From: a virus
Direction: 5' to 3' (one strand)
Length of the DNA stretch: 32,501 bases
Virus record (IMG/VR): IMGVR_UViG_3300008216_000046
Location: 1 to 32,501 of that record
Below are positions 7,905-32,501 of this stretch, piece by piece (the first letter of the stretch is position 1; each line of letters opens with the position of its first letter). Under the pieces are notes generated by a model. That model saw nothing but the letters and a program-made list of their open reading frames with translations, searched no databases and was not told the origin of the DNA. Made by a program: the position numbers and the translations under genes.

Positions 7905-8082
7905 CTTCGGGCACTCCTTTGTAAAAGACACTTGACGAAACCTTTTCTTGGTCTTGCCTTACGTGTTCTTCAATTATGTACTCGACCTGTTTCTTTAACG
8001 ACCGCTTATTTTTCTTAGCAATCTCAGACAACAGGAATTTGATTTGGGGGCTGACTTCAGCCTTAAGTATGTGATTCTTCAC
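7882..8082 (-). CDS. Small protein, possible ribbon-helix-helix DNA-binding
   Basis: This 66-residue protein starts at a GTG five bases after AAGGAG. The N-terminus reads as a short strand (HILKAEVSPQ) followed by two helices (IKFLLSEIAKKNKRS and LKKQVEYIIEEHVRQ), the size and order of a ribbon-helix-helix domain of the CopG/Arc type. It overlaps the primase-helicase end upstream and the Gp157 gene start downstream, so all three are probably co-translated. A regulator of this operon is possible; the call rests only on secondary-structure pattern. Confidence 0.55.
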   Translation of the reverse strand: MKNHILKAEVSPQIKFLLSEIAKKNKRSLKKQVEYIIEEHVRQDQEKVSSSVFYKGVPEDGSKEND

Positions 8083-9871
8083 AATTACTCCTTTTTACTG
8101 GCAATCTAAATGATGGTTGCCATTCTAGGTCAACTTCAAATAAATCACCATCACTGTTTTTGAATAACTGAACCTCTTTATCTGGACTATCTTGCCTACC
8201 ATTGATACCTATTACTTTGCGTGATGCATTCTCAATCGCTCCACTGCCTTTACCTGCATAGATGTCAAGGACTTCGTTTCGACTATATTCTCTAGATACT
8301 TGAGATATCTGTATGATAATAATATCGCTGTTAATAGCAAGATTGGATAAATAATGCGAGATATACCGTACCTGTTCATATTCACCTCTAACATTTCTTG
8401 GTGTCTCTAATAAATCTATATAGTCTACAATAACAAGAGCAGGGTCTAATTCTTTAATCTTCTTTGGTATCATCGTTACTTCACCAGCGACCGTCTGTAT
8501 TACTATATTCTGTATATATTCTTTAAAAGTCATACCAACATATCTATGACTCTTAGTAACCTCTTCTTTAGTCATTCCACTTGCAATCTGCAAATTCCTT
8601 CTATGCATATACCAACCACTTAATTCTAAAGATAAGAATAATGTTGGTACTTGCCATTCAGTCCTTATACAGTCATTGGCAAAGTCATATCCCAAAGCTA
8701 TATTTTGTGCGAGAGTAGTCTTATTTGACCCTGTTGGACCAAATATTGTTACTAATTCACCCGGATATATAGCACAATCCTTGTCATTCAAACCAAACCT
8801 TTCAGCAAGGTCTATCATCCTACCTGAGAAATCAGTTTCTAATCTTTCAGATAAGTCTTTCTGTAACTCGTCAGCGTTCTTTACATCTACCAGATAATCC
8901 TTATTCTTGTAGTATATGCACCTAGGTTCACATACCGGTACAAGAATTTCATCATCACAACCATATTTATATCCACCATTGTAAGTGGCTTCGACCTTGT
9001 CAATTACAATTTGTGGGTTTAATTGGTTATTATTCCAATGTAATAATGACGACTTAGCGGCTTCACTCGGTATTCCGTGTCTACGCATATGGGATGCTAT
9101 TCGTAATACCGTATTGTTTCTTGTTCCTTCATTAGGACCTCTTTTATAAAGAGTTTGTATACAAGGCACAATATTTCTAGGTTCAGACACTCGTGTCATT
9201 TCCCTAATTTGTGGCACATCTTTGTCAACAAGTTCTCCAAGACTACCATCACCCCATAGTTCTGATTGTCCTGTGCTTAATCTTCTGTCACTAGCAATCT
9301 TATGAATTCCTGCAACAGATGATGTCATTACTTCATTATAAGTTAATGGTACTTTAAACAGTTGTGACTTGATATTCAAAGTATGTGGTAAACGTATTAA
9401 TGCTGTACGTGTATAGACGGCTGGGTCAATGGGCACCAATTCATCAAAGATGCCCATCATAGTTTGCTTTACCGTAAATGGTAAGTCTGAACTTGGTTCA
9501 AAACCAAAGCATTCACTGCTAATATCCACGTGATAGCCATTACCAGAGAAATAAGCTTGGAAGTTACCTTCCTTTAAACTTAACTCATCAGTAAGATGAA
9601 AGATAATAGCCTGTGTTTGCTGTAAGACATATTCATCAGAGTTCTGACCTTTATCAATATCGATTGGTACATCAGTGATACCCCTTGTTCCCAAGAAGTT
9701 CTTTATTGTTCCACTCTTCTTAATAAAGTTCAAAGCTTCATCATCATATGTATATACGCTTTTGTATATAGCTTGGTTACTCCCTTGTTCATAAACTAAA
9801 TCCCATAGTTCCTCGTAAGGAACGAGAGCCCCCCGTCTAGAGGGGCTCCCTATTGCGACTTCTACGTACAA
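8063..9871 (-). CDS. Bifunctional AEP-type primase / DnaB-like helicase
   Basis: This 602-residue protein has an N-terminal archaeo-eukaryotic primase domain, with the metal-binding DxD in VPIDIDKGQ (about residue 70), then FSGNGYHVDIS (the SxH-type motif) and a conserved RTALIRLPHTLN. The C-terminal half is a RecA-fold helicase: Walker A GPTGSNKT at about residue 380, Walker B LVIVDYIDLL at about 480, and IIIIQISQVSRE, as in DnaB-family replicative helicases. It would synthesise primers and unwind the phage replication fork. The start is a TTG immediately after the TAA of the upstream gene with no ribosome-binding site, implying coupled re-initiation. Two tight hairpins lie in its first 70 bases. 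Confidence 0.85.
   Translation of the reverse strand: MYVEVAIGSPSRRGALVPYEELWDLVYEQGSNQAIYKSVYTYDDEALNFIKKSGTIKNFLGTRGITDVPIDIDKGQNSDEYVLQQTQAIIFHLTDELSLKEGNFQAYFSGNGYHVDISSECFGFEPSSDLPFTVKQTMMGIFDELVPIDPAVYTRTALIRLPHTLNIKSQLFKVPLTYNEVMTSSVAGIHKIASDRRLSTGQSELWGDGSLGELVDKDVPQIREMTRVSEPRNIVPCIQTLYKRGPNEGTRNNTVLRIASHMRRHGIPSEAAKSSLLHWNNNQLNPQIVIDKVEATYNGGYKYGCDDEILVPVCEPRCIYYKNKDYLVDVKNADELQKDLSERLETDFSGRMIDLAERFGLNDKDCAIYPGELVTIFGPTGSNKTTLAQNIALGYDFANDCIRTEWQVPTLFLSLELSGWYMHRRNLQIASGMTKEEVTKSHRYVGMTFKEYIQNIVIQTVAGEVTMIPKKIKELDPALVIVDYIDLLETPRNVRGEYEQVRYISHYLSNLAINSDIIIIQISQVSREYSRNEVLDIYAGKGSGAIENASRKVIGINGRQDSPDKEVQLFKNSDGDLFEVDLEWQPSFRLPVKRSNCEESHT
9808..9848 (-). promoter_or_regulatory. Tandem hairpins at 5' end of primase-helicase gene
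   Basis: Two stems lie within the first 20 codons: GAGCCCC/GGGGCTC (9826-9832 with 9842-9848) and GTTCCT/AGGAAC (9808-9813 with 9818-9823), the second with a UACG loop on the mRNA strand. Together with the TTG start lacking a ribosome-binding site, they could limit independent initiation. Regulation is inferred. Confidence 0.4.
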
Positions 9872-10492: not shown

Positions 10493-11368
10493 CTACTGTT
10501 TCTCCTCTTTATAATTAAGTATTTCATCACATACTGTTTTATAGTCAAACGGAAGTTGCTTCTGATTCAAAGGCTTGAGTCTAGAGCCAACGACTCTTTC
10601 ATCATAAGCCTCAAATGAAACATAGAAACCACCGTCATCTTTCTTAGCTGTAATATATCCTATTACATCGGCTTTAGCGGCAAGAGAATACCCGAGTCCT
10701 CTCGGGAGCTCAGGTCCTAATTGTGCTTTACCATCAGTTACAACTGTAGACTTTGCGTGTGATATCAATACCAGATTTCCACCTTTTTGTTTTATCAGAC
10801 TTTGGAATCTTTTAATTACGTCAACATTCTTCCGTCTGGCTTTACCCCAGTCGGCTCCCCATTGACCTTCTCCCATTGCTGATATTCCCAGTTCCTCACA
10901 GACTGTAGTTTCAATCCATTCATTTACCTGTCCGATAGTGTCTATAACTATTGTCTCATAAGGCAACGTATCCCACGCTGTCGCTAACCAGTTGTAAACT
11001 TCTATTAATGAATAGGCATCAATAGGTTTACCTTTATCTTTACCAGTACGTGCTAGGAAACCACGTTCATTTGGTGGGATTACTTCTGTTTGCGGTACAC
11101 CACCCTTAGTGACCTGCTTATCTTCGTGTAAGACAGGTCTCATAGGTGGATTTAAGGAAGAAATGGTAACCGCATTGACGCCATCTACGAAATCAGAACC
11201 TAAGTCCGTATCTAATAGAATGACTCCATCATTTCCTTTGTCAGACCATCTGCTTGACGCAGTAGTCTTACCCGTTTTGGGTTGTCCGATTAGAAACCAC
11301 GTTAGACCGGATGGCATTGCTTTCCAGTCCGTCGAGACTTTCCTCACGGTTATGTTGGGTGCTTGCAT
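10493..11368 (-). CDS. Sak4-like RecA-fold ATPase (AAA_24 type)
   Basis: This 291-residue protein is read from the ATG at 11368, six bases after AAGGAG; an ATG two codons upstream abuts that site. Walker A is GQPKTGKTT (about residues 29-37), followed by ILLDTDLGSDF. Walker B-like TIVIDTIGQVNEW is at about residue 140. GGNLVLISHAKS follows, the sensor segment common to RecA-core phage ATPases. Sak4 proteins assist single-strand annealing and recombination, usually with an ssDNA-binding partner, here plausibly the next gene. Its first about 100 bases overlap the 3' end of the E1-like gene in another frame. Confidence 0.75.
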   Translation of the reverse strand: MQAPNITVRKVSTDWKAMPSGLTWFLIGQPKTGKTTASSRWSDKGNDGVILLDTDLGSDFVDGVNAVTISSLNPPMRPVLHEDKQVTKGGVPQTEVIPPNERGFLARTGKDKGKPIDAYSLIEVYNWLATAWDTLPYETIVIDTIGQVNEWIETTVCEELGISAMGEGQWGADWGKARRKNVDVIKRFQSLIKQKGGNLVLISHAKSTVVTDGKAQLGPELPRGLGYSLAAKADVIGYITAKKDDGGFYVSFEAYDERVVGSRLKPLNQKQLPFDYKTVCDEILNYKEEKQ

Positions 11369-12047
11369 TAGCATCTCCTTCAGGTTTTGGTACTACAAGA
11401 GTACCATATTCGACCATATTTGGGTTCAGGCTGGTCCAAATGTAGTCATAATATGCCAGATTTGCAATAATATTATATACTTGGGAAACACCAAGAGATA
11501 CTATATGCTGTGTGGCAAACACTGTATGTTTCATAGAACAAGGAGCTTCTGGAACACTATCTGTAGGAATCCATTCCTTCATATAATTATCCATATCCTT
11601 GGTTACAGTAGACATCTCTACTGTTGTTGCACCCATCCGTAAATCAATTAAGAACTTACGGTTGTCTTGTAGCTTCCAATCTTCATACACTAATTTTCTT
11701 GACTCCATATCATCTGTACATACAATCATCATAGGCAATACAACTGAACCATATTGGAAATTTCTTTCCGGTCTAAATTGTTGCCAGTCTTCTGCATATT
11801 CTTTATGTAAGTCAACTGCCGCATCCTTTTTAAACTTGCCTGTTTGATACAAAGGATACGCCGTAGTACTTAAGTTATGGTCCTCTACTCTATCGCTGTC
11901 ATAACCCCAAATAGACTGCCAGCCCATCATAGTTAAACTTTGAATCATAAAAGAACCAATACCACCGAGACCTACTACACCAATCTCAGTTAATTTAGGT
12001 AAAGGAATTAAATCCTTATTCCTTAGGAATCTTGTTTCCATTGCCAT
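11268..12047 (-). CDS. E1/ThiF-like ubiquitin-activating enzyme
   Basis: This 259-residue protein has a Rossmann-type adenylation domain. The nucleotide-binding VVGLGGIGS is at residues 24-32, and the E1 signature YDSDRVEDHNLS at 49-60 provides the Asp that contacts ribose and the HNL counterpart of the usual SNLNR. CTDDMESRK at 110-118 is the following ThiF-type motif. Cys170 in APCSMKHTVF is the candidate thioester cysteine. Such enzymes adenylate the C-terminus of a beta-grasp protein and pass it on as a thioester. The zinc-binding CxxC pairs of MoeB/ThiF are absent. The last 35 residues look disordered and overlap the Sak4-like gene by about 100 bases. Its partners Ubl, E2 and JAB lie upstream in the same operon. 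Confidence 0.85.
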   Translation of the reverse strand: MAMETRFLRNKDLIPLPKLTEIGVVGLGGIGSFMIQSLTMMGWQSIWGYDSDRVEDHNLSTTAYPLYQTGKFKKDAAVDLHKEYAEDWQQFRPERNFQYGSVVLPMMIVCTDDMESRKLVYEDWKLQDNRKFLIDLRMGATTVEMSTVTKDMDNYMKEWIPTDSVPEAPCSMKHTVFATQHIVSLGVSQVYNIIANLAYYDYIWTSLNPNMVEYGTLVVPKPEGDANASTQHNREESLDGLESNAIRSNVVSNRTTQNG

Positions 12048-12463
12048 TTGATAAAATCCTCCAGCATTTGATGTGCCAATTCCTCACTGCCAAACATACA
12101 AATATCCTTAATCTTTGTGCTTTCAGCACTGATTGCATCCAGTTCTTCTTGATATTTATGTTGAGCTCGACCTACTTCTTCTTCAAACTTTGCTTCCCAT
12201 TTATCGTGGTCTTTAAGTAGTTTGTCTACTGATACACTATTGCTATAGTAACCAGTATACTCAGCTCTACGTCTGTTAAGTATATTGTTTACTAATTCGT
12301 GTATCTCTTGAGGAGATTTGGTCACAATCTTATTGTTCTCGAAATCTTCAGCCAATCGACGTTCTTTATCAAAATGTTTTGACTGAACGGACGCTAATTT
12401 GTCACTAAGTATTCCATCAATCCGTTTTATGAAATACTTCTTCTGTGGTATTGTCATAGACAT
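12023..12463 (-). CDS. Coiled-coil hypothetical protein in the Ubl cassette
   Basis: This 146-residue protein is read from the ATG at 12463, five bases after AAGGAG; a GTG two codons earlier abuts that site. It is charged and mostly helical, with coiled-coil character around residues 20-45 and 80-118 and a single Cys in DICMFGSEE near the C-terminus (about residue 124). It overlaps the E1-like start by 25 bases, so the two are probably translated together. I recognise no family. Its place between the JAB and E1 genes makes it a candidate adaptor, substrate or ligase-like partner; this is inference from position only. Confidence 0.6.
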   Translation of the reverse strand: MSMTIPQKKYFIKRIDGILSDKLASVQSKHFDKERRLAEDFENNKIVTKSPQEIHELVNNILNRRRAEYTGYYSNSVSVDKLLKDHDKWEAKFEEEVGRAQHKYQEELDAISAESTKIKDICMFGSEELAHQMLEDFIKWQWKQDS

Positions 12464-12497
12464 ATACACTCCTTATTTATTAAGTTAAGTTAATCAA

Positions 12498-12604
12498 TAG
12501 GGGTATCCGGCTTTCTCACCAGTTGTACGGCTCGGTGCGGTACAGGGCTCACGTATCCGGTTTTATTACATACTGGCTTCAACCCCTACTGAAAGCGTGA
12601 GGGG
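12498..12604 (-). ncRNA. Candidate structured or switch-like RNA between JAB and the coiled-coil gene
   Basis: This GC-richer stretch of the 12470-12677 gap has several complementary segments. TAGGGGT (12498-12504) pairs with ACCCCTA (12582-12588). The same CCCCT (12583-12587) can instead pair with AGGGG (12600-12604), so the two folds exclude each other. Inside, CACC/GGTG (12517-12520, 12534-12537) and TGTAC/GTACA (12524-12528, 12540-12544) cross as in a pseudoknot. GTATCCGG is repeated directly at 12503 and 12553. I see no open reading frame here. A leader or riboswitch-like control of the downstream coiled-coil and E1 genes is possible; minus strand is assumed from the operon. Confidence 0.4.
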
Positions 12605-12677
12605 ACCCTTTAGCAAGAGCCCCCCCGGTACACTATCATACAGTTGAAGGTAATGTGGAAGGCATTACAATAGTGCA

Positions 12678-12866
12678 CTAATATCCATAATAGCCAGACA
12701 CATATAAATGTGGGTCTATATCAGGACACTCCTTACGGATGTCTTCAGTAAATTGATGTTCGTCTATTTCACAATTATTCAATTTATTAAAGATAACATC
12801 TGCTTTGACCAGTTGACTACCTAAGTCAGCTTCCCCGATAGGTGTATTGTCTTCTGGTCCTTCGGC
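12678..12866 (-). CDS. -1 frame extension of the JAB protein
   Basis: Reading on in the -1 frame from the slippery site gives 62 codons ending at TAG (12678-12680). The peptide starts AEGPEDNTPIGEADLG, continues through a probable helix (LVKADVIFNKLNN) and ends HLYVSGYYGY. It has balanced amino-acid use and no start codon or ribosome-binding site of its own, so it makes sense only as a fusion to residue 227 of the JAB protein, giving a 289-residue product. The alternative is that the extension is the normal end and one base of the A-run is a sequencing error. Confidence 0.7.
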   Translation of the reverse strand, partial: AEGPEDNTPIGEADLGSQLVKADVIFNKLNNCEIDEHQFTEDIRKECPDIDPHLYVSGYYGY

Positions 12867-12886
12867 TTTTTTTCGTCATCTACTCC
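12807..12886 (-). promoter_or_regulatory. Programmed -1 ribosomal frameshift signal in the JAB gene
   Basis: On the minus strand all three dnaX-type elements are present. A Shine-Dalgarno-like GGAG (12883-12886) lies 10 bases before the heptamer A AAA AAG (12866-12872), which is in the correct phase (gaA AAA AAG). Six bases later a stem starts: GACCAG (12854-12859) pairs with CUGGUC (12807-12812), continued by GAC/GUC and ACCUA/UAGGU with an apical loop. The zero-frame stop falls next to this upper stem. Spacings match the known E. coli dnaX arrangement. Confidence 0.75.
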
Positions 12887-13546
12887 ACTAATTCGATTGT
12901 ACCCACCCCAGCCATTATAATAACCACCATAACGACTGTCATTCTGGGTATTAAGGATGTTAAGCTGACCATTCTTGTTATAAACAATCTTAGTCTTCTT
13001 GTTTTCCTTCTCAATCTTCTTTGCTTCTGCTTTCCATTCTTTAGGAACATCCATTTTATAGTCAGCAACTACATCGCCTTCAATAAAATTTGGAAATCCA
13101 AAGTGGTCCCTGTAACTAACACCCGTACAAAATTCATCTTTGTCAGACGCAACTACTGTCGTGAAGAACAGACCTTCTAGAGGTGCTTGTTCTAACGCTG
13201 TGTCTTTATCGGTACCACTAAAGAACGCTCCCATATTATGATGAGAATGTATTAACCCTAGATAACAATTCTTCAATTTCTTGTTTTCCTTGTATATCTG
13301 TGGCAATATTTTGCCCAATTTCTCACCATCAATCTCAGTTTCTGTTGCGTGACCTAAGTCTATTGCAACGAAGTGATTGAGACTAACTTCTGACGGGAAG
13401 CCATTCTTTTCACGCTTATTTACTCCATACCAAGCTGGTCCAGACCACTCTTTACTCTTAAAACGAGTCAAGAGATAATTGATTTTCTGGACTATTAGGT
13501 CTGGTAGGTTCACCGTAAGCGTCAATTTGTTTGCTTCGTTTGTCAT
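12821..13546 (-). CDS. JAB/JAMM-family metallopeptidase (deubiquitinase-like)
   Basis: This 241-residue zero-frame product starts at an ATG six bases after AAAGGAG. It has a complete JAMM zinc-peptidase motif: Glu33 in KEWSGPAWYG, then His100-Ser-His102, seven residues, Ser110, two residues, Asp113 (LIHSHHNMGAFFSGTD). Such enzymes cut isopeptide or peptide bonds after a ubiquitin-like protein, either maturing it or removing it from targets. Residues 165-195 are Lys/Glu-rich, followed by a Tyr/Gly-rich stretch (YGGYYNGWGGY). The start overlaps the end of the E2-like gene by 89 bases. A frameshift signal at codon 227 can replace the last 14 residues with a 62-residue extension. Confidence 0.9.
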   Translation of the reverse strand: MTNEANKLTLTVNLPDLIVQKINYLLTRFKSKEWSGPAWYGVNKREKNGFPSEVSLNHFVAIDLGHATETEIDGEKLGKILPQIYKENKKLKNCYLGLIHSHHNMGAFFSGTDKDTALEQAPLEGLFFTTVVASDKDEFCTGVSYRDHFGFPNFIEGDVVADYKMDVPKEWKAEAKKIEKENKKTKIVYNKNGQLNILNTQNDSRYGGYYNGWGGYNRISGVDDEKKPKDQKTIHLSGKLT

Positions 13547-15044
13547 CAGTAACTCCTTTATAGAGAGCTTTCAGGTAATTCTGAAAAAACTCAAGGGCAT
13601 CTACCTGAAATTTGACCCTGAATTCTGTAACTAAGCCATTAGTGTCATAATTATCTAACACTAATCCCATTTGATTGACTATCGTTCTATATTCTTCTCC
13701 CATTTGCTCTCTTTTCTTAATGGGACGAATACTGTCGTCATTACGTAAGCTTATCCAACCAGACATTATCTGATGTGGATTAAACGAATCAATCACTTGC
13801 TTGAATAAGGGACCAAATTCCCTTATACGCCATATGAAATACAGAACTTTAAAAACCTCTGACTTCATAGGTCTTGTCATACCTGCGGCACGTAAACACC
13901 ACTCACCAACTACTCTATTTACTTCATCATTTTGCATATATACTTTATTTGTTATATCTGTTGGTGTCAGATAGATACGAGTCCTTGCATTAAGTACTTC
14001 TTTAATCTCAGGATAACTCTCATTATCACGATGTGTAAATTGATTAAAGCGATACTTTAAGCCATCAAATGAATTAGGTATACTAAATACTCTGTCCTGA
14101 GCAAACGGGTCGTTACCAGTTCTTATTACACCTGTAAAAGATTGTTCAATCCAAGCATATCCATTAAGTTTATGCGTATTGTATATCTCATCCAGACATT
14201 TACTCATTCCTTCGTTATAAAGTTTCTCTAACATTTGATGCCAACCGTGCATTCGGTCAACTTCTTTGTCTTCTGTGTCTGTTTCATACCTTAAAGTACC
14301 TTTATAAACACAATAAGCCATTAAAGCTTTCTCCCAAGTAACACCCATCGCCTCAAGTTTCTCTTGAGTTTCATCATTACGCATCCAACTGTCAAAATGC
14401 CGCATAATTAGATTGCCACCTAAATCATTTACGATAGCTCTTGCCATCTGTGATAGATATAGCCACTCTCTAAATTGCATACCTCTGCGTCCTTGCATCT
14501 GCCCACTACGTTCAAAACTTCTATGCTGAGTATTAACATCCCAGAAACAATCAACACGTGTCCAAGTATTTAGAAACGCACTAGATATATTCATTAGTGC
14601 AGGTATGTTTCCTTGATTAACTGCTGTAGAAAATGGTCTACCGTAATCACCTAAACAAGGACTTCCATCTGCTGAAATATGTGGATGAACACTCAATGGC
14701 ATATTAGTATCTTCACGTCTGTAGCTTAACCTACGTCTGAGGTCCCACCATTTTTCATAATTGTCTTCATCTGGTTTAATGAGTACTAAACTAGGCTCAT
14801 ATAAACTGAAGTCTAATGAATGTGGTGGTAATGTTAGATGACGTCTTGCCCTCATCTTTGGGTTCCCAAGTCTTACTCTAAAGCTTTTAAACCTTTTACT
14901 TGGGCTGTGGAATTGTACTCCACGCTCTACCAATTCTTCTACTTTCGCTCTTGCTTGATTAACATTCAAACGAGCACGCTCCATAGAATTCTTGGAATTT
15001 AATACTAGCCATCTTTCTGCTAGTTTAGCTAGAACTCTGTTCAT
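13458..15044 (-). CDS. E2-like ubiquitin-conjugating protein with long C-terminal region
   Basis: This 528-residue protein starts at an ATG seven bases after AAAGGAG. Residues about 55-140 read as a UBC-like core ending in LSVHPHISADGSPCLGDYG. His120 and Cys130 are ten residues apart, exactly as in the eukaryotic HPN...CL catalytic motif, with HPH in place of HPN. Cys130 would carry the Ubl thioester. About 390 residues follow that are helical and Trp/Met/Arg-rich with no motif I know, far longer than a normal E2 (about 150-170 residues). They may give target or virion specificity. It lies directly after the Ubl gene and overlaps the JAB gene. Confidence 0.75.
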   Translation of the reverse strand: MNRVLAKLAERWLVLNSKNSMERARLNVNQARAKVEELVERGVQFHSPSKRFKSFRVRLGNPKMRARRHLTLPPHSLDFSLYEPSLVLIKPDEDNYEKWWDLRRRLSYRREDTNMPLSVHPHISADGSPCLGDYGRPFSTAVNQGNIPALMNISSAFLNTWTRVDCFWDVNTQHRSFERSGQMQGRRGMQFREWLYLSQMARAIVNDLGGNLIMRHFDSWMRNDETQEKLEAMGVTWEKALMAYCVYKGTLRYETDTEDKEVDRMHGWHQMLEKLYNEGMSKCLDEIYNTHKLNGYAWIEQSFTGVIRTGNDPFAQDRVFSIPNSFDGLKYRFNQFTHRDNESYPEIKEVLNARTRIYLTPTDITNKVYMQNDEVNRVVGEWCLRAAGMTRPMKSEVFKVLYFIWRIREFGPLFKQVIDSFNPHQIMSGWISLRNDDSIRPIKKREQMGEEYRTIVNQMGLVLDNYDTNGLVTEFRVKFQVDALEFFQNYLKALYKGVTDDKRSKQIDAYGEPTRPNSPENQLSLDSF

Positions 15045-15066
15045 AACTACACTCCTTTAATGAGAA

Positions 15067-15089
15067 TGGGGACGCTCACCACGTCCCCA
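15067..15089 (-). other. Hairpin between Ubl and E2-like genes
   Basis: A perfect 8-bp stem (TGGGGACG with CGTCCCCA) closes a seven-base loop. No T-run follows in either direction. It lies just after the Ubl stop and before the E2 ribosome-binding site, so it may set the ratio of the two proteins by mRNA processing or partial termination. Confidence 0.55.
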
Positions 15090-15107
15090 AACGTCAATTT
15101 CGTGCTT

Positions 15108-15308
15108 TCAGCCTGAAGTTACCTTGCTAGTGGTAAAAGAAACGAAATCATCATCCCTTAGTTCACTATCAAGAGCTACTTTGTCTGAATTCACAGTTAT
15201 GGTGGCATTCTCTACTGAGATACCCAGTTGTTCAGCTATACTAGCTGGACTTGTTGCATCAACAGTTTTGACTGTTCCACCGAAGGTTTGTACAAGTACT
15301 TTAGCCAT
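15108..15308 (-). CDS. Ubiquitin-like beta-grasp protein (ThiS/MoaD-type)
   Basis: This 66-residue protein has the size and pattern of a ThiS/MoaD/PRTRC-C-type beta-grasp fold: a first hairpin (AKVLVQTFGGTVKTVD), a helix (SPASIAEQLGI), strands ATITVNSDKVAL and a terminal strand DDFVSFTTSKV. It ends in Thr-Ser-Gly, a single C-terminal glycine. The family's C-terminal glycine is what an E1 adenylates. It precedes E2-like, JAB and E1-like genes in transcription order, which strongly supports a role as the conjugated modifier. With the glycine already terminal, no processing peptidase would be needed. The ribosome-binding site is weak (AAGG about 12 bases upstream). Confidence 0.8.
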   Translation of the reverse strand: MAKVLVQTFGGTVKTVDATSPASIAEQLGISVENATITVNSDKVALDSELRDDDFVSFTTSKVTSG

Positions 15309-15683: not shown

Positions 15684-15899
15684 TTAGGGTTCTGGATTAT
15701 ACTCAGGCTCGAAGCGATGACCTAGTTCATCTGGGTCTTCTTGGTGAGAGCACTCTAGGCATATAATGCCAAGTTCGGATTCATCACCCGTACCGGGTTT
15801 GATGTATTCTTCGAATTCTGTATTCTGTGAATCACATTCCGAACACTCAATATGTGCTGGGTCACCGCCTATGGGAACCGAGTTATTGTTCTTCTTCAT
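15684..15899 (-). CDS. Small zinc-ribbon protein
   Basis: This 71-residue acidic protein contains CSEC at about residue 19 and CLEC at about residue 47, two CxxC knuckles typical of a zinc ribbon. The C-terminus is acidic and proline-rich (EPEYNPEP). It overlaps the end of the membrane-protein gene upstream by 17 bases. Function unknown; such ribbons often mediate protein or nucleic-acid contacts. Confidence 0.65.
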   Translation of the reverse strand: MKKNNNSVPIGGDPAHIECSECDSQNTEFEEYIKPGTGDESELGIICLECSHQEDPDELGHRFEPEYNPEP

Positions 15900-20025: not shown

Positions 20026-20179
20026 AAACGTCCAGAAGCCTTGGCGTACAACTAAAGGTTGGGAATTTCCTTATACAGACCCTGTTTGGGAAGATAAACA
20101 GTATCTTCGAGATAGGTCAAAATTATTCCGAGATAACGGAAATGGATGGTGGATAGAGCTTTGGAATCGTATCTGGTAA
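20015..20179 (+). CDS. Small Trp-rich protein
   Basis: A 54-residue frame starts at a GTG overlapping the previous gene and ends inside the oxygenase gene. It has seven tryptophans (for example KPWRTTKGWEFPYTDPVWED and GWWIELWNRIW), unusual for chance reading. No strong ribosome-binding site precedes it, so it may be translated by coupling. Function unknown. Confidence 0.4.
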   Translation: MKSKNVQKPWRTTKGWEFPYTDPVWEDKQYLRDRSKLFRDNGNGWWIELWNRIW

Positions 20180-20736
20180 CAGATAGAGAGGTAAAATTTG
20201 AGAATTGGTACATTGTTAAGAACTTATTCTCAGATGATGAAATAGAGCAGTTATTCCAAGATATAGAGGTATTGCCTAAAAAGAAGGCTAATATACTGTC
20301 TGGTGAGGATAATGATTACCGTGAGAGTATGATTAAGTGGATTCCTAAGTTTAATAGTGATACCTATGGATGGATATACGAAAAAGTATGGAAATGGGTA
20401 GATATCGCTAATAAGGAACTCTGGGACTTCGATTTAGTAGGTATGAGGAATGATGCCCAATATACAGAGTATAACCAAGAAGGACACTATGATTGGCATA
20501 TGGATATACTAGGAAAGGGTATAAATCATAGAAAAATCTCTATCACGGTTCAATTAAATAAAAACTTTAAAGGTGGCGAGTTAGAGTTTAAATTCGGAAA
20601 GGGTTCGGAGAAAATAGCTTTAGAGAAGGGAGATGGTGTTATATTCCCTTCTTTCTATTTACATAAGGTAAATCCCGTAACGTATGGTAAAAGGAAAAGT
20701 CTAGTACAATGGATTTCGGGGAAACCGTACAAGTAA
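20146..20736 (+). CDS. 2OG-Fe(II) oxygenase (prolyl-4-hydroxylase-like)
   Basis: This 196-residue protein has the double-stranded beta-helix oxygenase signature: GHYDWHMDIL provides the His-x-Asp iron ligands (about residues 118-120), and FYLHKVNPVTYGKRKSLVQW near the C-terminus provides the distal His and the Arg/Lys that binds 2-oxoglutarate. GGELEFKF lies between them. The enzyme would hydroxylate a protein or small molecule using 2OG, O2 and Fe(II). Such genes are frequent in aquatic phages, but targets are mostly unknown. It overlaps the TerL gene by 28 bases. Confidence 0.8.
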   Translation: MVDRALESYLVTDREVKFENWYIVKNLFSDDEIEQLFQDIEVLPKKKANILSGEDNDYRESMIKWIPKFNSDTYGWIYEKVWKWVDIANKELWDFDLVGMRNDAQYTEYNQEGHYDWHMDILGKGINHRKISITVQLNKNFKGGELEFKFGKGSEKIALEKGDGVIFPSFYLHKVNPVTYGKRKSLVQWISGKPYK

Positions 20737-22226
20737 CAGATGACTTTGAAGCTAAATATGCCCAAGAACAGGCATTAAAGAAGCTAAGGGATAATATTGG
20801 TCTTTTTGGAAGAACAATGTTCCCTACAGCCCTGAATAAGGCTGTTCCCCAGTTCCATCACGAAATATACAGAAATTTATCCGACGGTCTCAAAAAGCGG
20901 TTACTGATTGCCGCCCCTCGTGGCACAGCAAAAAGCACAGTGACCTCCTTGATTCTGCCCCTTCATCGAGCCGCTTTTAAGCCGTCGGATAAAGATTTAT
21001 TTATAGTTATCATATCTGAGAGCCAAGCTCAGAGTATAAACTTCTTATCAAGGATAAAACACCATCTCCAACATTCTAGGAACTTTATTGATATGTTTGG
21101 TGATTTTGGACCAAATACTGCAAAGAGATGGACTAATAACGATATTGTTCTAGCCAATGGTACAAGAATGATAGCCGTTGGTACCGGTCAAAGAGTTCGT
21201 GGGTTTATTGAGGGAGATACTCGACCAAATCTTATAATAGTTGATGATTACGAATCGGAGCTAAATGCCGCTACACCTGAAGCTAGAGCTAAAAATAGGA
21301 AATGGATTACAGAGGCAGTTATACCATCATTAAGTGATGACGGTAGAATTGTTATGATAGGAACAGTAATTTCAGAGGATTGCTTCTTATATTGGGCAAA
21401 AGACTCTCCAGCTTGGAAAGTTCTGTGGTTTTCTATCACAGATGACGAAGGAGAGAGTATTTGGGATGAAAGGTTCCCTATGTCTAGAATCCACGATATA
21501 AAAGCAGAGTTTGAAAGTGTTGGGAACTTAAATGGATTCTATCAGGAGTATATGAATGAAGCTCAATCGCCAGACAATGCACCGTTTAAGCCAGAATATA
21601 TCAAACTACACCACTACCACTATAAACGTATTAACGGGCAAAATTGTCTCGTTAGGATTATCGATGGTCAGGAAGAGCAAAAACCTGTGGAGGTCTATTG
21701 TGGGATTGACCCTGCTAGTAGTCTCTCTGCTAGGTCAGACTTTTTTGTTATTGCTACTATTGCTCTTGACAATGCTGGCAATAAGTATGTTGTGGATATA
21801 TTCAGAGACAAAGTCGACCCTGCAATCCAGCCTGACAAAATTATCGAAATTTGGAAAAGATATCGTCCGAAGAGGATGAAAATAGAAACAACTGGGTATC
21901 AGGAAGCATTAAGAGCTAATGTACGTAAATTAATGCTTGACCAAGGATTATACATACCCGGACTGGAAAAAGGGATAAAACCTAGGACCAAGAAGTCTGA
22001 AAGACTATTATCTCTTGTAGCACCACTTGCTAGGGGTGAGTTTTTCTTCAGGACACAGGATTTAATACCACAACAAGAGTTCTTATCTTATCCAAGGGGT
22101 AAACACGATGATGTGTTAGATGCAGTCTATTATGCACTAGATGGAGCTAAACAATGTCGTATAAAAGAATTTGACCCAAATGCCATAAAAAAGACGAATA
22201 AAGTTCTTGATTGGCTTACAATGTAG
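20709..22226 (+). CDS. terL: Terminase large subunit
   Basis: This 505-residue packaging motor has the ATPase Walker A APRGTAKST (about residues 69-77), Walker B LIIVDDYESE (about 175-184), and the nuclease domain with catalytic Asp in YCGIDPASS (about 335) and a C-terminal KHDDVLDAVYYA acidic motif (about 461-472). It drives genome translocation into the procapsid and cuts DNA to length. It is followed by the portal, the usual order. The start lies within the end of the oxygenase gene and has only a distant AGGA, so coupling is likely. Confidence 0.95.
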   Translation: MDFGETVQVTDDFEAKYAQEQALKKLRDNIGLFGRTMFPTALNKAVPQFHHEIYRNLSDGLKKRLLIAAPRGTAKSTVTSLILPLHRAAFKPSDKDLFIVIISESQAQSINFLSRIKHHLQHSRNFIDMFGDFGPNTAKRWTNNDIVLANGTRMIAVGTGQRVRGFIEGDTRPNLIIVDDYESELNAATPEARAKNRKWITEAVIPSLSDDGRIVMIGTVISEDCFLYWAKDSPAWKVLWFSITDDEGESIWDERFPMSRIHDIKAEFESVGNLNGFYQEYMNEAQSPDNAPFKPEYIKLHHYHYKRINGQNCLVRIIDGQEEQKPVEVYCGIDPASSLSARSDFFVIATIALDNAGNKYVVDIFRDKVDPAIQPDKIIEIWKRYRPKRMKIETTGYQEALRANVRKLMLDQGLYIPGLEKGIKPRTKKSERLLSLVAPLARGEFFFRTQDLIPQQEFLSYPRGKHDDVLDAVYYALDGAKQCRIKEFDPNAIKKTNKVLDWLTM

Positions 22227-29634: not shown

Positions 29635-31062
29635 ATGGCAAAAGTCTGGAAAAAACTCCAGAGAGCAGACAGTGCTTTCGAGGGTAACGTCACTGGTACA
29701 GTAGACGGGACTGCGGCTGGTACTGTTAAGTCTGGAGCAACAGCTGGAACGGCGGCAAAGGTAATTACGGACGCCGCCTTTGATAGTAGCACTAAGCTGA
29801 AAGCGGCAAATGCTGTTGATGCTTTGGTGAATGCAAATACAACGAAAAGTGATGTTGGACTGGGGAATGTCGATAATGATTCGACATCTACAATTCGGTC
29901 TGGTACCACAAAAGCTGATGTCGGATTAGGGAATGTAGACAATGACTCTACATCTACCATTAGGTCTGGCACAACTGCCGCTAATGTAGGCTTAGGCAAT
30001 GTAGCAAACGAATCAAGAGCTACCATTTTAGGTGGTAACTTGACAGGAACAGTTGATAGTGTTGCAGTTGGCACCATTAAAACCGGGGCTTCTAAAGGAG
30101 CCGCCGCACCTATCACATTTAGACAGGATGGAATACCAACAGCACTAAATGCTGGTGACGTTTGGTTTGACACAAACGATAGTAATAAGCAATACAGGGC
30201 TACTGCTACTGGAGATGATGCAATCACCTCTGGAGAATGGGAAAGCGTTGTACAGGGTAAGATTCACTCTTACTCAAAAAGCGATGTTGGTCTCGGTTCT
30301 GTCGACAATGACAGTACTGCAACCATTCGGTCTGGTACCACTGCCGCTAATGTAGGCTTGGGTAATGTAACTAACGAATCAAAAGCAACTATGTTTGCAG
30401 GACCCACATTCACGGGTACTGTAGCAGGTGTTTCTAAAGCACACGTTGGCTTGGCTAATGTTGATAATGATTCCACATCCACAATTCGGTCTGGCACAAC
30501 TGCCGCCAATGTTGGTTTGGGGAATGTTACTAATGAGTCTAAGGCTACTATGTTTACTAGTCCAGCGATTACAGGAACTCCAACAGGTGTTACTGCAACT
30601 CACGTTGGATTAGGAAATGTAAGTAACATTACTACTGCGACTATGAGAGATGGAGTAACTAAGGCTAATGTTGGTCTTACTAATGTTATCGACCAAGCAA
30701 TTACCGTTGCAAGTGGTAAACTCAAGTTTGGGTCTACTACTCAAACACTAGATGCTGATACAGTTGATGGAGATTCTAAGGCTACTATAAAAGCCGCCGC
30801 AGTAACAACTGCTGAAACAAACATTATCGGTAGTGCACCGGGGGCTTTGAATACTCTTGATGAGTTAGCCGCCGCACTTAATGATGATGCGAGTTTCAAT
30901 AGTACGATTACTACATCAATCGCAACGAAAGGCAAGGCACCAATGACTCTAACAGCAGAAGACGTTGATGGAGATTCAACTTATGATAATGACCCGGCAA
31001 GTGAAGCGATTGGACAAATTGGCGTTTACTCCGGTCAATCATACGCAGTGATGGATATTTAA
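29635..31062 (+). CDS. Tail fibre protein with VGLGNV repeats
   Basis: This 475-residue protein starts at an ATG with GGAG eight bases upstream. The N-terminus (AKVWKKLQRADSAFEGNVTG) is shared with the partial gene at the end of the window and probably is the virion-attachment part. About ten imperfect repeats of around 20-35 residues follow, centred on VGLGNVDNDSTSTIRSGTT, interrupted by a fibre motif (GDVWFDTNDSNKQYRA). These repeats form trimeric beta shafts in many phage fibres. The C-terminal part (about 370-475) would hold the receptor-binding or trimerisation region. Confidence 0.85.
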   Translation: MAKVWKKLQRADSAFEGNVTGTVDGTAAGTVKSGATAGTAAKVITDAAFDSSTKLKAANAVDALVNANTTKSDVGLGNVDNDSTSTIRSGTTKADVGLGNVDNDSTSTIRSGTTAANVGLGNVANESRATILGGNLTGTVDSVAVGTIKTGASKGAAAPITFRQDGIPTALNAGDVWFDTNDSNKQYRATATGDDAITSGEWESVVQGKIHSYSKSDVGLGSVDNDSTATIRSGTTAANVGLGNVTNESKATMFAGPTFTGTVAGVSKAHVGLANVDNDSTSTIRSGTTAANVGLGNVTNESKATMFTSPAITGTPTGVTATHVGLGNVSNITTATMRDGVTKANVGLTNVIDQAITVASGKLKFGSTTQTLDADTVDGDSKATIKAAAVTTAETNIIGSAPGALNTLDELAAALNDDASFNSTITTSIATKGKAPMTLTAEDVDGDSTYDNDPASEAIGQIGVYSGQSYAVMDI

Positions 31063-31852: not shown

Positions 31853-32045
31853 GTTAACAACACAAGAGCTACACGCTATGGTTACGTTACTTGAAGGTGT
31901 CAAAGTAGAAATAAAAGAAGGACTGTGGCTATATAGAATGTATGAAAAGATATTGAATGCATTTAAATCTGCGGCAGAAGCCGACCCTGATTGGGTTGAA
32001 GTTGAAGCAGAGGAAAAAGAAGCTCCAGTAGTACAGAATGGCTAA
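31824..32045 (+). CDS. Small hypothetical protein between fibre genes
   Basis: This 73-residue protein starts at a GTG nine bases after AGGAGG and overlaps both neighbours. It has two helices (TTQELHAMVTLLEGVKVE and LWLYRMYEKILNAFKSA) and an acidic end (EVEAEEKEAPVVQNG). With the 83-residue gene it may form a pair of fibre assembly or chaperone proteins, an inference from position. Confidence 0.55.
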   Translation: MNQPKLKTVKLTTQELHAMVTLLEGVKVEIKEGLWLYRMYEKILNAFKSAAEADPDWVEVEAEEKEAPVVQNG

Positions 32046-32501
32046 ACAGTGGAAAAAACTGCAACGGGCTGATTCAGCTTTCACTGGAGATGTCACAGGT
32101 TCTATTAATGGTGCCTCTGCCGCTTCAATTAAGAGTGGTTCTGCACTAGGAGCTAGTTCCAATCAGGACTCTACTTCTACAATAAGAAGTGGAGTTACTA
32201 AAAGTGATGTTGGTCTTAGCAATGTAGATAACGATTCTACTTCTACTATTAGAAGTGGTGTTACTAAAGCTAATGTAGGTCTCGGAAATGTTGAAGATAA
32301 GAGTGCGGCTACAATTATGGCTGGTACCTTTACTGGTAACATTGGTGGTACAAGTGCGGCTGATATTAAGACAAAAGCTGTTGCTGGTGAAGCGGCAAAG
32401 AGTGCTGTAGATGGTAATGCCGCCGTTACTATGGTTGGCGGTAGTATCAATATAGGTTCTGGTGAATGGACTGTAGATTCTGATGGTAACCAAGTAACCA
32501 A
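32038..32501 (+). CDS. Second tail fibre protein, 3' end cut by window
   Basis: This frame is open from the ATG at 32038 to the window end (about 154 residues seen). Its N-terminus (AKQWKKLQRADSAFTGDVTG) is nearly the same as that of the first fibre. It then carries at least two repeats of the same type (SDVGLSNVDNDSTSTIRSG and ANVGLGNVEDKSAATI). It is a paralogue of the gene at 29635, with different codons for the same peptide, so the duplication is not recent. The receptor-binding end lies outside the window. Confidence 0.85.
   Translation, partial: MAKQWKKLQRADSAFTGDVTGSINGASAASIKSGSALGASSNQDSTSTIRSGVTKSDVGLSNVDNDSTSTIRSGVTKANVGLGNVEDKSAATIMAGTFTGNIGGTSAADIKTKAVAGEAAKSAVDGNAAVTMVGGSINIGSGEWTVDSDGNQVT

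Follow-up and report, generated by a model that had tools for sequence, protein, structure and literature searches.

A probable ubiquitin-like conjugation gene set in the DNA-replication block of a family of marine bacterial viruses

The window analyzed here, a 32.5 kb stretch of bacteriophage DNA (positions 1-32,501 of IMG/VR virus record IMGVR_UViG_3300008216_000046), encodes on its minus strand a ubiquitin-like protein (Ubl), an E2-like conjugating enzyme, a JAB/JAMM peptidase and a ThiF-type E1 activating enzyme. This Ubl-conjugation set is a permanent part of the DNA-replication block in a family of marine bacterial viruses, and it probably constitutes a phage-encoded, reversible Ubl-conjugation system that belongs to the core of the replication module. 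The first-pass annotation of the window had placed the four open reading frames (ORFs) where we also find them, and had proposed a complete Ubl-E2-JAB-E1 set inside a phage replication operon. That proposal holds, with the gene order of the cassette fixed among relatives. The features that carry it are the following (aa, amino acids).

15108..15308, minus strand: Ubl, a 66-aa beta-grasp modifier ending K-V-T-S-G (AlphaFold2 model, fold matches, invariant C-terminus)
13458..15044, minus strand: E2-like protein, 528 aa, with an N-terminal UBC-like domain and a long helical C-terminal region (AlphaFold2, VIA-align)
14436..14972, minus strand: UBC-like domain, E2 residues ~25-203 (range aligned to E2 structures)
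14655..14687, minus strand: E2 active site from HPH (residues 120-122) to the predicted catalytic Cys130, HPHISADGSPC (invariance; alignment to UBE2W HPHVYSNGHIC)
12821..13546, minus strand: JAB/JAMM peptidase, zero-frame (short) product of 241 aa (Pfam Prok-JAB, JAMM residues)
11268..12047, minus strand: E1/ThiF-type adenylating enzyme, 259 aa, with candidate catalytic Cys170 at 11538-11540 (Pfam ThiF)

Sequence and predicted structure of the four proteins

Curated libraries were scanned with the ten cassette and replication proteins (Pfam, PHROGs) and with the five cassette proteins (NCBIfam, PADLOC). The profile searches that the first-pass annotation had proposed bear out two of its four assignments: E1, a member of the ThiF superfamily, and JAB both exceed their Pfam gathering scores (ThiF, 35.5 vs 28.1; Prok-JAB, 27.7 vs 25), whereas Ubl and the E2-like protein are above the cut-off in no model of the four libraries.

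Scans for relatives yielded 35 loci for E1, 40 for the E2 alignment and 35 for the Ubl alignment. Residue counts refer to unique ORFs and include partly truncated copies from overlapping loci; those for E1 and JAB also cover crAss-type and Flavobacterium sequences. The window E1 holds GLGGIG, DSDRVEDHNL and C170, and its residues G26 (81/81), D50 (81/81), K73 (83/83), D112 (85/85), R137 (86/86) and C170 (87/87) are invariant, the last being, from its conservation, the candidate for a cysteine that could form a thioester. JAB shows the full Glu ... HxH ... S ... D pattern of JAMM peptidases, with E33 kept in 69/69 sequences and H100, H102, S110 and D113 in 72/72. In the E2-like protein, whose motif HPHISADGSPCLG holds H120 and C130, residues H120, P121 and H122 (54/54), P129 (54/54), C130 (55/55) and G132 (55/55) do not vary. 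With one exception, the 30 further E2s are only 11-36% identical to the window copy, so that selection has acted on the active site. Every catalytic residue named in the first-pass annotation is thereby invariant across the relatives collected, and, judged from these alignments, a chance origin of the conservation is excluded.

The AlphaFold2 model of Ubl (predicted local distance difference test, pLDDT, of 86) shows the strand-strand-helix-strand-strand order of a beta-grasp protein. Its best fold matches are TtuB (Z 9.3; 1.6 A over 61 residues), MoaD (Z 8.7, in the MoeB-bound acyl-adenylate form), SAMP1/2 and ThiS. The Ubl profile, run against PDB sequences, finds SAMP2 and PF1061 at E 0.006-0.009, ranked under one repeat-protein match. 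The C-terminus follows the pattern K-V-x-S-G, with K62, V63, S65 and G66 invariant in all 45 sequences that reach this end, so that each ends its domain in SG and not in the GG of the MoaD/ThiS/SAMP class; the invariant terminal Gly may still act like GlyGly. After SG follow 0-19 residues without common pattern: 33 of the 40 distinct domain-plus-tail sequences are tailed and 7 are tailless. A Gly that never varies, with a dispensable tail behind it, is as expected, from sequence, of a Ubl precursor that would be trimmed by its own JAB.

The E2 model (pLDDT 88) comprises N-terminal helices, a beta-meander, a loop carrying HPH and Cys130, more helices and then more than 300 helical residues. VIA-align fills ranks 1 to 18 for this model (residues ~10-209) exclusively with ubiquitin-conjugating enzymes, led by Ube2w (Z 5.7, 14% identity); families that do not appear in the VIA-align lists are not to be taken as absent. 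The sequence profile points the same way, its best match among all PDB sequences being UBE2W at a weak E = 1, where HPHVYSNGHICL is aligned to the phage motif with HPH and CL matched. The spacing from His to Cys is ten in both proteins. A UBC fold with a predicted catalytic Cys is accordingly present in the model, and HPH takes the place of the usual HPN in 54/54 E2s. The first-pass annotation had named two grounds for abandoning its reading, predicted structures other than UBC-fold or beta-grasp and catalytic residues that vary among homologues, and neither occurred.

The E2 and JAB genes share 89 bases (13458-13546). The bases of the conserved JAB motif K-I-N-Y-L-L, to which the overlap extends in 41/46 loci, also encode the E2 C-terminus QLSLDSF, which resembles a beta-clamp peptide. 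This peptide was rejected as a clamp-binding motif, because its Q and L are dictated by the Ile-Asn-Tyr codons of JAB, and is not used as evidence.

Distribution of the set and its genomic surroundings

Presence was tested with less bias in scans anchored outside the cassette, at the primase-helicase (best 80 of 111 relatives) and at the terminase (best 80 of 398 relatives).

8063..9871, minus strand: primase-helicase of DnaB type, anchor of the core-gene test (Pfam DnaB_C, phrog_19)

A helicase-anchored locus counted as testable when at least 2700 (E1), 4600 (JAB), 5600 (E2) or 5800 (Ubl) bases were available upstream of the helicase ORF. Among testable loci, E1 is present in 49/49, JAB in 36/36, Ubl in 27/27 and E2 in 25/28; Ubl is also found in all seven terminase-anchored loci that extend 8 kb or more upstream. 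By these counts the set is conserved almost as strictly as the helicase. Scans of 84,980 genomes of bacteria and archaea with the E1 and JAB alignments, which detect close relatives only, gave no match.

Of 50,697 phage records, 79 contain an E1 relative; most are from Flavobacterium phages or Bacteroides crAss-like phages (Steigviridae), and further ones from Dulem virus 41 and from Xanthomonas and Erwinia jumbo phages. JAB and ThiF are neighbours in crAss001-type, Flavobacterium and Dulem phages, where they lie amid genes for primase, recombination or repair, and the JAB profile matches the gene directly before ThiF in DAC15 (2.8e-23) and FpV4 (2.4e-19). The block of crAss001 (L098 1238-5648) reads gp79-gp78-gp77 (metalloprotease)-gp76 (ThiF) beside a DNA primase and a uracil-DNA glycosylase, a layout repeated in the other Steigviridae records examined; ThiF of this type is annotated as a thiamine biosynthesis protein. 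The first domain of gp79-type genes ends K-K-I-[KR]-S-G or similar and is followed by some 100-200 residues, and the second gene of the block has invariant H-S-H and C-x-G. These features suggest a matching gene order in crAss001-type phages: Ubl-precursor-like, E2-like, JAB and ThiF, the first two being candidates. Homology of the crAss and Flavobacterium Ubl and E2 candidates to those of the window was unsupported by profile comparison (hhalign probability 0.1 to 7%); PDB searches with these candidates were empty or irrelevant, and they match no Pfam or NCBIfam family. In cr106_1 (L100 677-1880), an HNH endonuclease gene splits the Ubl-like domain, two residues past SG, from its former tail.

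In the Xanthomonas and Erwinia jumbo phages (Xanthomonas phage PhiXhv-16, L104 2736-6612), ThiF stands beside an 892-aa HPH...CLG protein, together with a 140-aa protein ending SGG. The PhiXhv-16 copy of the large protein, which adjoins ThiF, reaches an hhalign probability of 46% over 54 columns against the E2 profile, and its cysteine-rich ends might serve as a zinc module. The 140-aa upstream protein (P0018) was rejected as a Ubl candidate, being without profile support, and no JAB is annotated within the 12.5 kb shown around the PhiXhv-16 ThiF.

Within the window, the structural genes, portal and terminase (20709-22226) lie on the plus strand and the replication block on the minus strand, which is transcribed in the order Ubl, E2-like protein, JAB, ORFX, ThiF-type E1, Sak4-like recombinase, unknown gene, primase-helicase, small gene and Gp157/Gam-like gene.

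15684..15899, minus strand: small CxxC...CxxC putative zinc-ribbon protein, just upstream of Ubl
12023..12469, minus strand: ORFX, 148 aa, without convincing curated family
10493..11374, minus strand: Sak4-like recombinase, directly 3' of E1 (phrog_124, 6.9e-26)
12866..12872, minus strand: slippery heptamer A_AAA_AAG in the JAB register, candidate -1 frameshift site
12678..12866, minus strand: -1 frame JAB tail of 62 codons plus stop (conserved tail)
12470..12680, minus strand: structured spacer between JAB tail and ORFX (fold z -3.3)

ORFX is optional, being found in part of the relatives only. Of 54 loci that have 1 kb or more of upstream sequence, overlapping ones counted, 52 keep the putative zinc-ribbon protein ahead of Ubl; it matches no curated family of Pfam or NCBIfam above the cut-off and is a possible target adaptor.

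The JAB ORF is located where the first-pass annotation had it, and the frame given there probably yields the short product only, as a conserved tail continues in the -1 frame to 12678. A -1 shift at the heptamer would lengthen JAB from 241 to about 289 aa, and full-length relatives with an in-frame tail mostly measure 276-304 aa. In the window and in four more unique JAB ORFs (L002, L039, L060, L071), the conserved tail stands in the -1 frame with an in-register A_AAA_AAR at the joining point. Many relatives with an in-frame tail keep the heptamer at the matching place, where a -1 shift would shorten JAB. The heptamer is found 114-139 codons after HSH in 28 of 60 unique JAB ORFs and is absent there in 32, and elsewhere in JAB only three occur. 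Since the terminase gene also holds conserved in-register heptamers (42 in 31,587 codons), the heptamer alone proves nothing and the frame switch is the stronger point. A programmed -1 frameshift yielding a long and a short JAB is probably the simplest reading of these frames; real indels or assembly errors in A-runs are possible for single loci. An RNA hairpin as stimulator was also considered and rejected: its best-of-nine z-scores were strong, but 24% of 308 random coding positions reach -2.7 or lower, so that hairpins at single loci are not significant, and the argument is confined to the slippery site and the frames.

The spacer that follows JAB has an unusually stable fold in the window. 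In eight relatives (L004, L005, L006, L014, L018, L019, L020, L027) a motif of this spacer has an 8-pair stem in which 98.2% of cells are paired and 4 pairs have changed on both sides; its covariation score is reached by 0/500 shuffles. The automatic consensus fold of twelve spacers, that of the window included, has almost no common structure, which suggests that the element of the window itself may differ from the stem of its relatives. No Rfam model matched the spacer at gathering in the window or in the six loci tried.

Two observations concern the plus strand. The protein encoded at 20146-20736, directly 5' of the terminase, has an HxD pattern that, we presume, recalls 2-oxoglutarate/iron hydroxylases. 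By eye, 29635-31062 and 32038-32501 encode GLGNVDNDSTSTIRSGTTKADV-type repeats, as in phage tail-fibre proteins.

Proposed function and alternative explanations

In the mechanism that we propose, JAB would cut the precursor tail after ...KVxSG where a tail exists, as the tail pattern suggests, and the ThiF-type E1 would adenylate the C-terminal Gly of Ubl and take it over as a thioester on Cys170, a role to which its invariant residues point. Cys130 of E2 would then accept Ubl, and the HPH active site would pass it to an amino group of the target; here fold and residues are predicted, and the chemistry is presumed from them. Because JAB is kept where Ubl already ends at SG, the window included, the peptidase presumably does more than trim, and it would also strip the tag off targets. 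From the genomic context, the likeliest targets would be proteins of the replication or recombination fork, of phage or host.

In eukaryotes, HPH instead of HPN is a feature of the UBE2W family, which ubiquitinates N-terminal amino groups (PMC4630614, PMC9527308). Since sequence and structure methods both pick UBE2W, the sole eukaryotic E2 family with HPH, the active site predicts N-terminal rather than lysine linkage, and we prefer, as a weaker sub-hypothesis drawn by analogy, that the phage E2 would make an N-terminal alpha-amino linkage. A more far-reaching version, in which a phage-exclusive Ubl system of the replication machinery uses its UBE2W-like HPH E2 to tag the N-termini of fork proteins, balances modification through the long and short frameshift forms of JAB and runs as the same class in crAss001-type gut phages, is tentative and, taken as a whole, rather doubtful.

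Several points weigh against a reversible conjugation system. E2 went undetected in 3 of the 28 testable loci (L155, L157, L163). Foldseek alone ranked no E2 among the first 50 matches to this protein's model, and the Z of 5.7 from VIA-align is only moderate. E1 lacks the Arg of the MoeB-type NLxRQ motif, position 61 being T, S, G or N, though R117 and R137 are invariant. No E3 ligase was recognized. HPH by itself is no proof of N-terminal specificity, the UBE2W comparison being drawn from eukaryotic E2s, and the crAss-type Ubl and E2 assignments, made from gene order and motifs (K-x-x-SG, H-S-H...C-x-G) alone, are suggestive.

The same genes could serve a sulphur carrier, in which the ThiF-type E1 activates Ubl and the sulphur of a thiocarboxylate goes to a metabolite, tRNA or base, as with ThiS, MoaD and TtuB. 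The nearest folds of Ubl are indeed the sulphur carriers TtuB, MoaD and ThiS, and the E1 is of the ThiF family, whose models score. A UBC-like E2 with invariant HPH-Cys, however, almost always adjoins, the JAMM peptidase is kept even where Ubl requires no trimming, and the ten cassette and replication proteins scanned include no match to rhodanese, TtuA, ThiG or MoaE. We regard a purely sulphur-carrying role as improbable. TtuB does both jobs, sulphur carriage and protein modification, so the phage Ubl may have a dual role.

Counter-defence, in which the phage would tag or untag host immune proteins (e.g. components of CBASS, Bil or Bub) and so switch them off, also appears unlikely to us. Counter-defence genes are usually patchy in distribution; this set is in nearly every testable relative and embedded amid replication genes, and its PADLOC matches are limited to generic E1-E2 and JAB models. 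Some bacterial E1/E2/JAB systems, CBASS and Bil among them, do act against phages (PMC12355090, PMC11354881, PMC13373217), so a mimic could interfere with them. The near-universal presence of the set and its place in the replication block of unrelated phages favour a role in the replication phase over accessory counter-defence, without settling the matter. Least probable of all, and very improbable, is modification of the virion by attachment of Ubl to capsid or tail proteins: portal and terminase are encoded by the same phage on the opposite strand, and Ubl and JAB proteins are known among lambda-type tail genes (PMC1779556), but the cassette sits with the minus-strand replication genes, apart from the structural genes on the plus strand.

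Most work on bacterial Ubl conjugation to date has dealt with it as an antiphage weapon; here the phages themselves possess the complete set, which appears to be reversible. That these genes are kept as strictly as the helicase implies a need for them during ordinary replication. As similar gene order is found in the cultured phages crAss001 (Bacteroides intestinalis), DAC15 (B. thetaiotaomicron) and FpV4 (Flavobacterium psychrophilum), the question of what a phage tags, and why, is directly testable.

Comparison with known systems

Bil and Bub have, in full, a Ubl, an E1, an E2 and a deconjugase, and they stand in a bacterial immune locus, whereas the present set is carried by phages. Prokaryotic Ubl conjugation has been known since Iyer et al. 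2006 (PMC1779556) and is also described for CBASS (PMC12355090) and for Bil and Bub (PMC11354881, PMC13373217). The BilD E1 is described as having an inactive and an active adenylation domain; the phage E1 is a single 259-aa ThiF domain, which sets it apart from Bil.

The type 6d operons of Iyer et al. (Ubl, JAB, E1, E2, helical protein) and the plasmid PRTRC cassettes resemble the phage set in their separate genes and the C-terminal Gly of Ubl (PMC1779556). The E2s of type 6d are given there as lacking the upstream His, whereas H120 is present in 54/54 phage E2s; with HPH invariant, the phage E2 represents a different E2 branch. Type 6d and PRTRC are also sporadic, in contrast to the core genes of the phages. 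The PRTRC kinship suggested by the first-pass annotation proves to be a distant one: PRTRC_ThiF reaches 28.7 where its cut-off is 144.75, PRTRC_A reaches 14.5 where 101.8 is required, and Ubl and the E2-like protein match no NCBIfam PRTRC model.

Like the phages, CBASS has E1 and E2 activities plus a JAB in Cap2/Cap3, and Cap2 chains match the E1 profile at E ~9e-4. Cap2 is an E1-E2 fusion (PMC12355090); the phage E1 and E2 are separate genes and the phage has a Ubl. The window differs from CBASS type II in having no E1-E2 fusion, and no CD-NTase is seen among the ten cassette and replication proteins scanned. Among single proteins, UBE2W, the top match by both sequence and structure, has HPH in place of HPN and the His-to-Cys spacing of 10 in common with the phage E2, which differs from it by the helical extension of more than 300 residues and an identity of only 14%. 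TtuB, SAMP, MoaD and ThiS agree with the phage Ubl in fold and length and have GG where the latter has SG and a variable tail.

The literature searched, outside which fell most subscription papers and all preprints, describes no complete phage-encoded set. The system is of a known kind, prokaryotic Ubl conjugation, within which complete ownership by a phage appears to be new.

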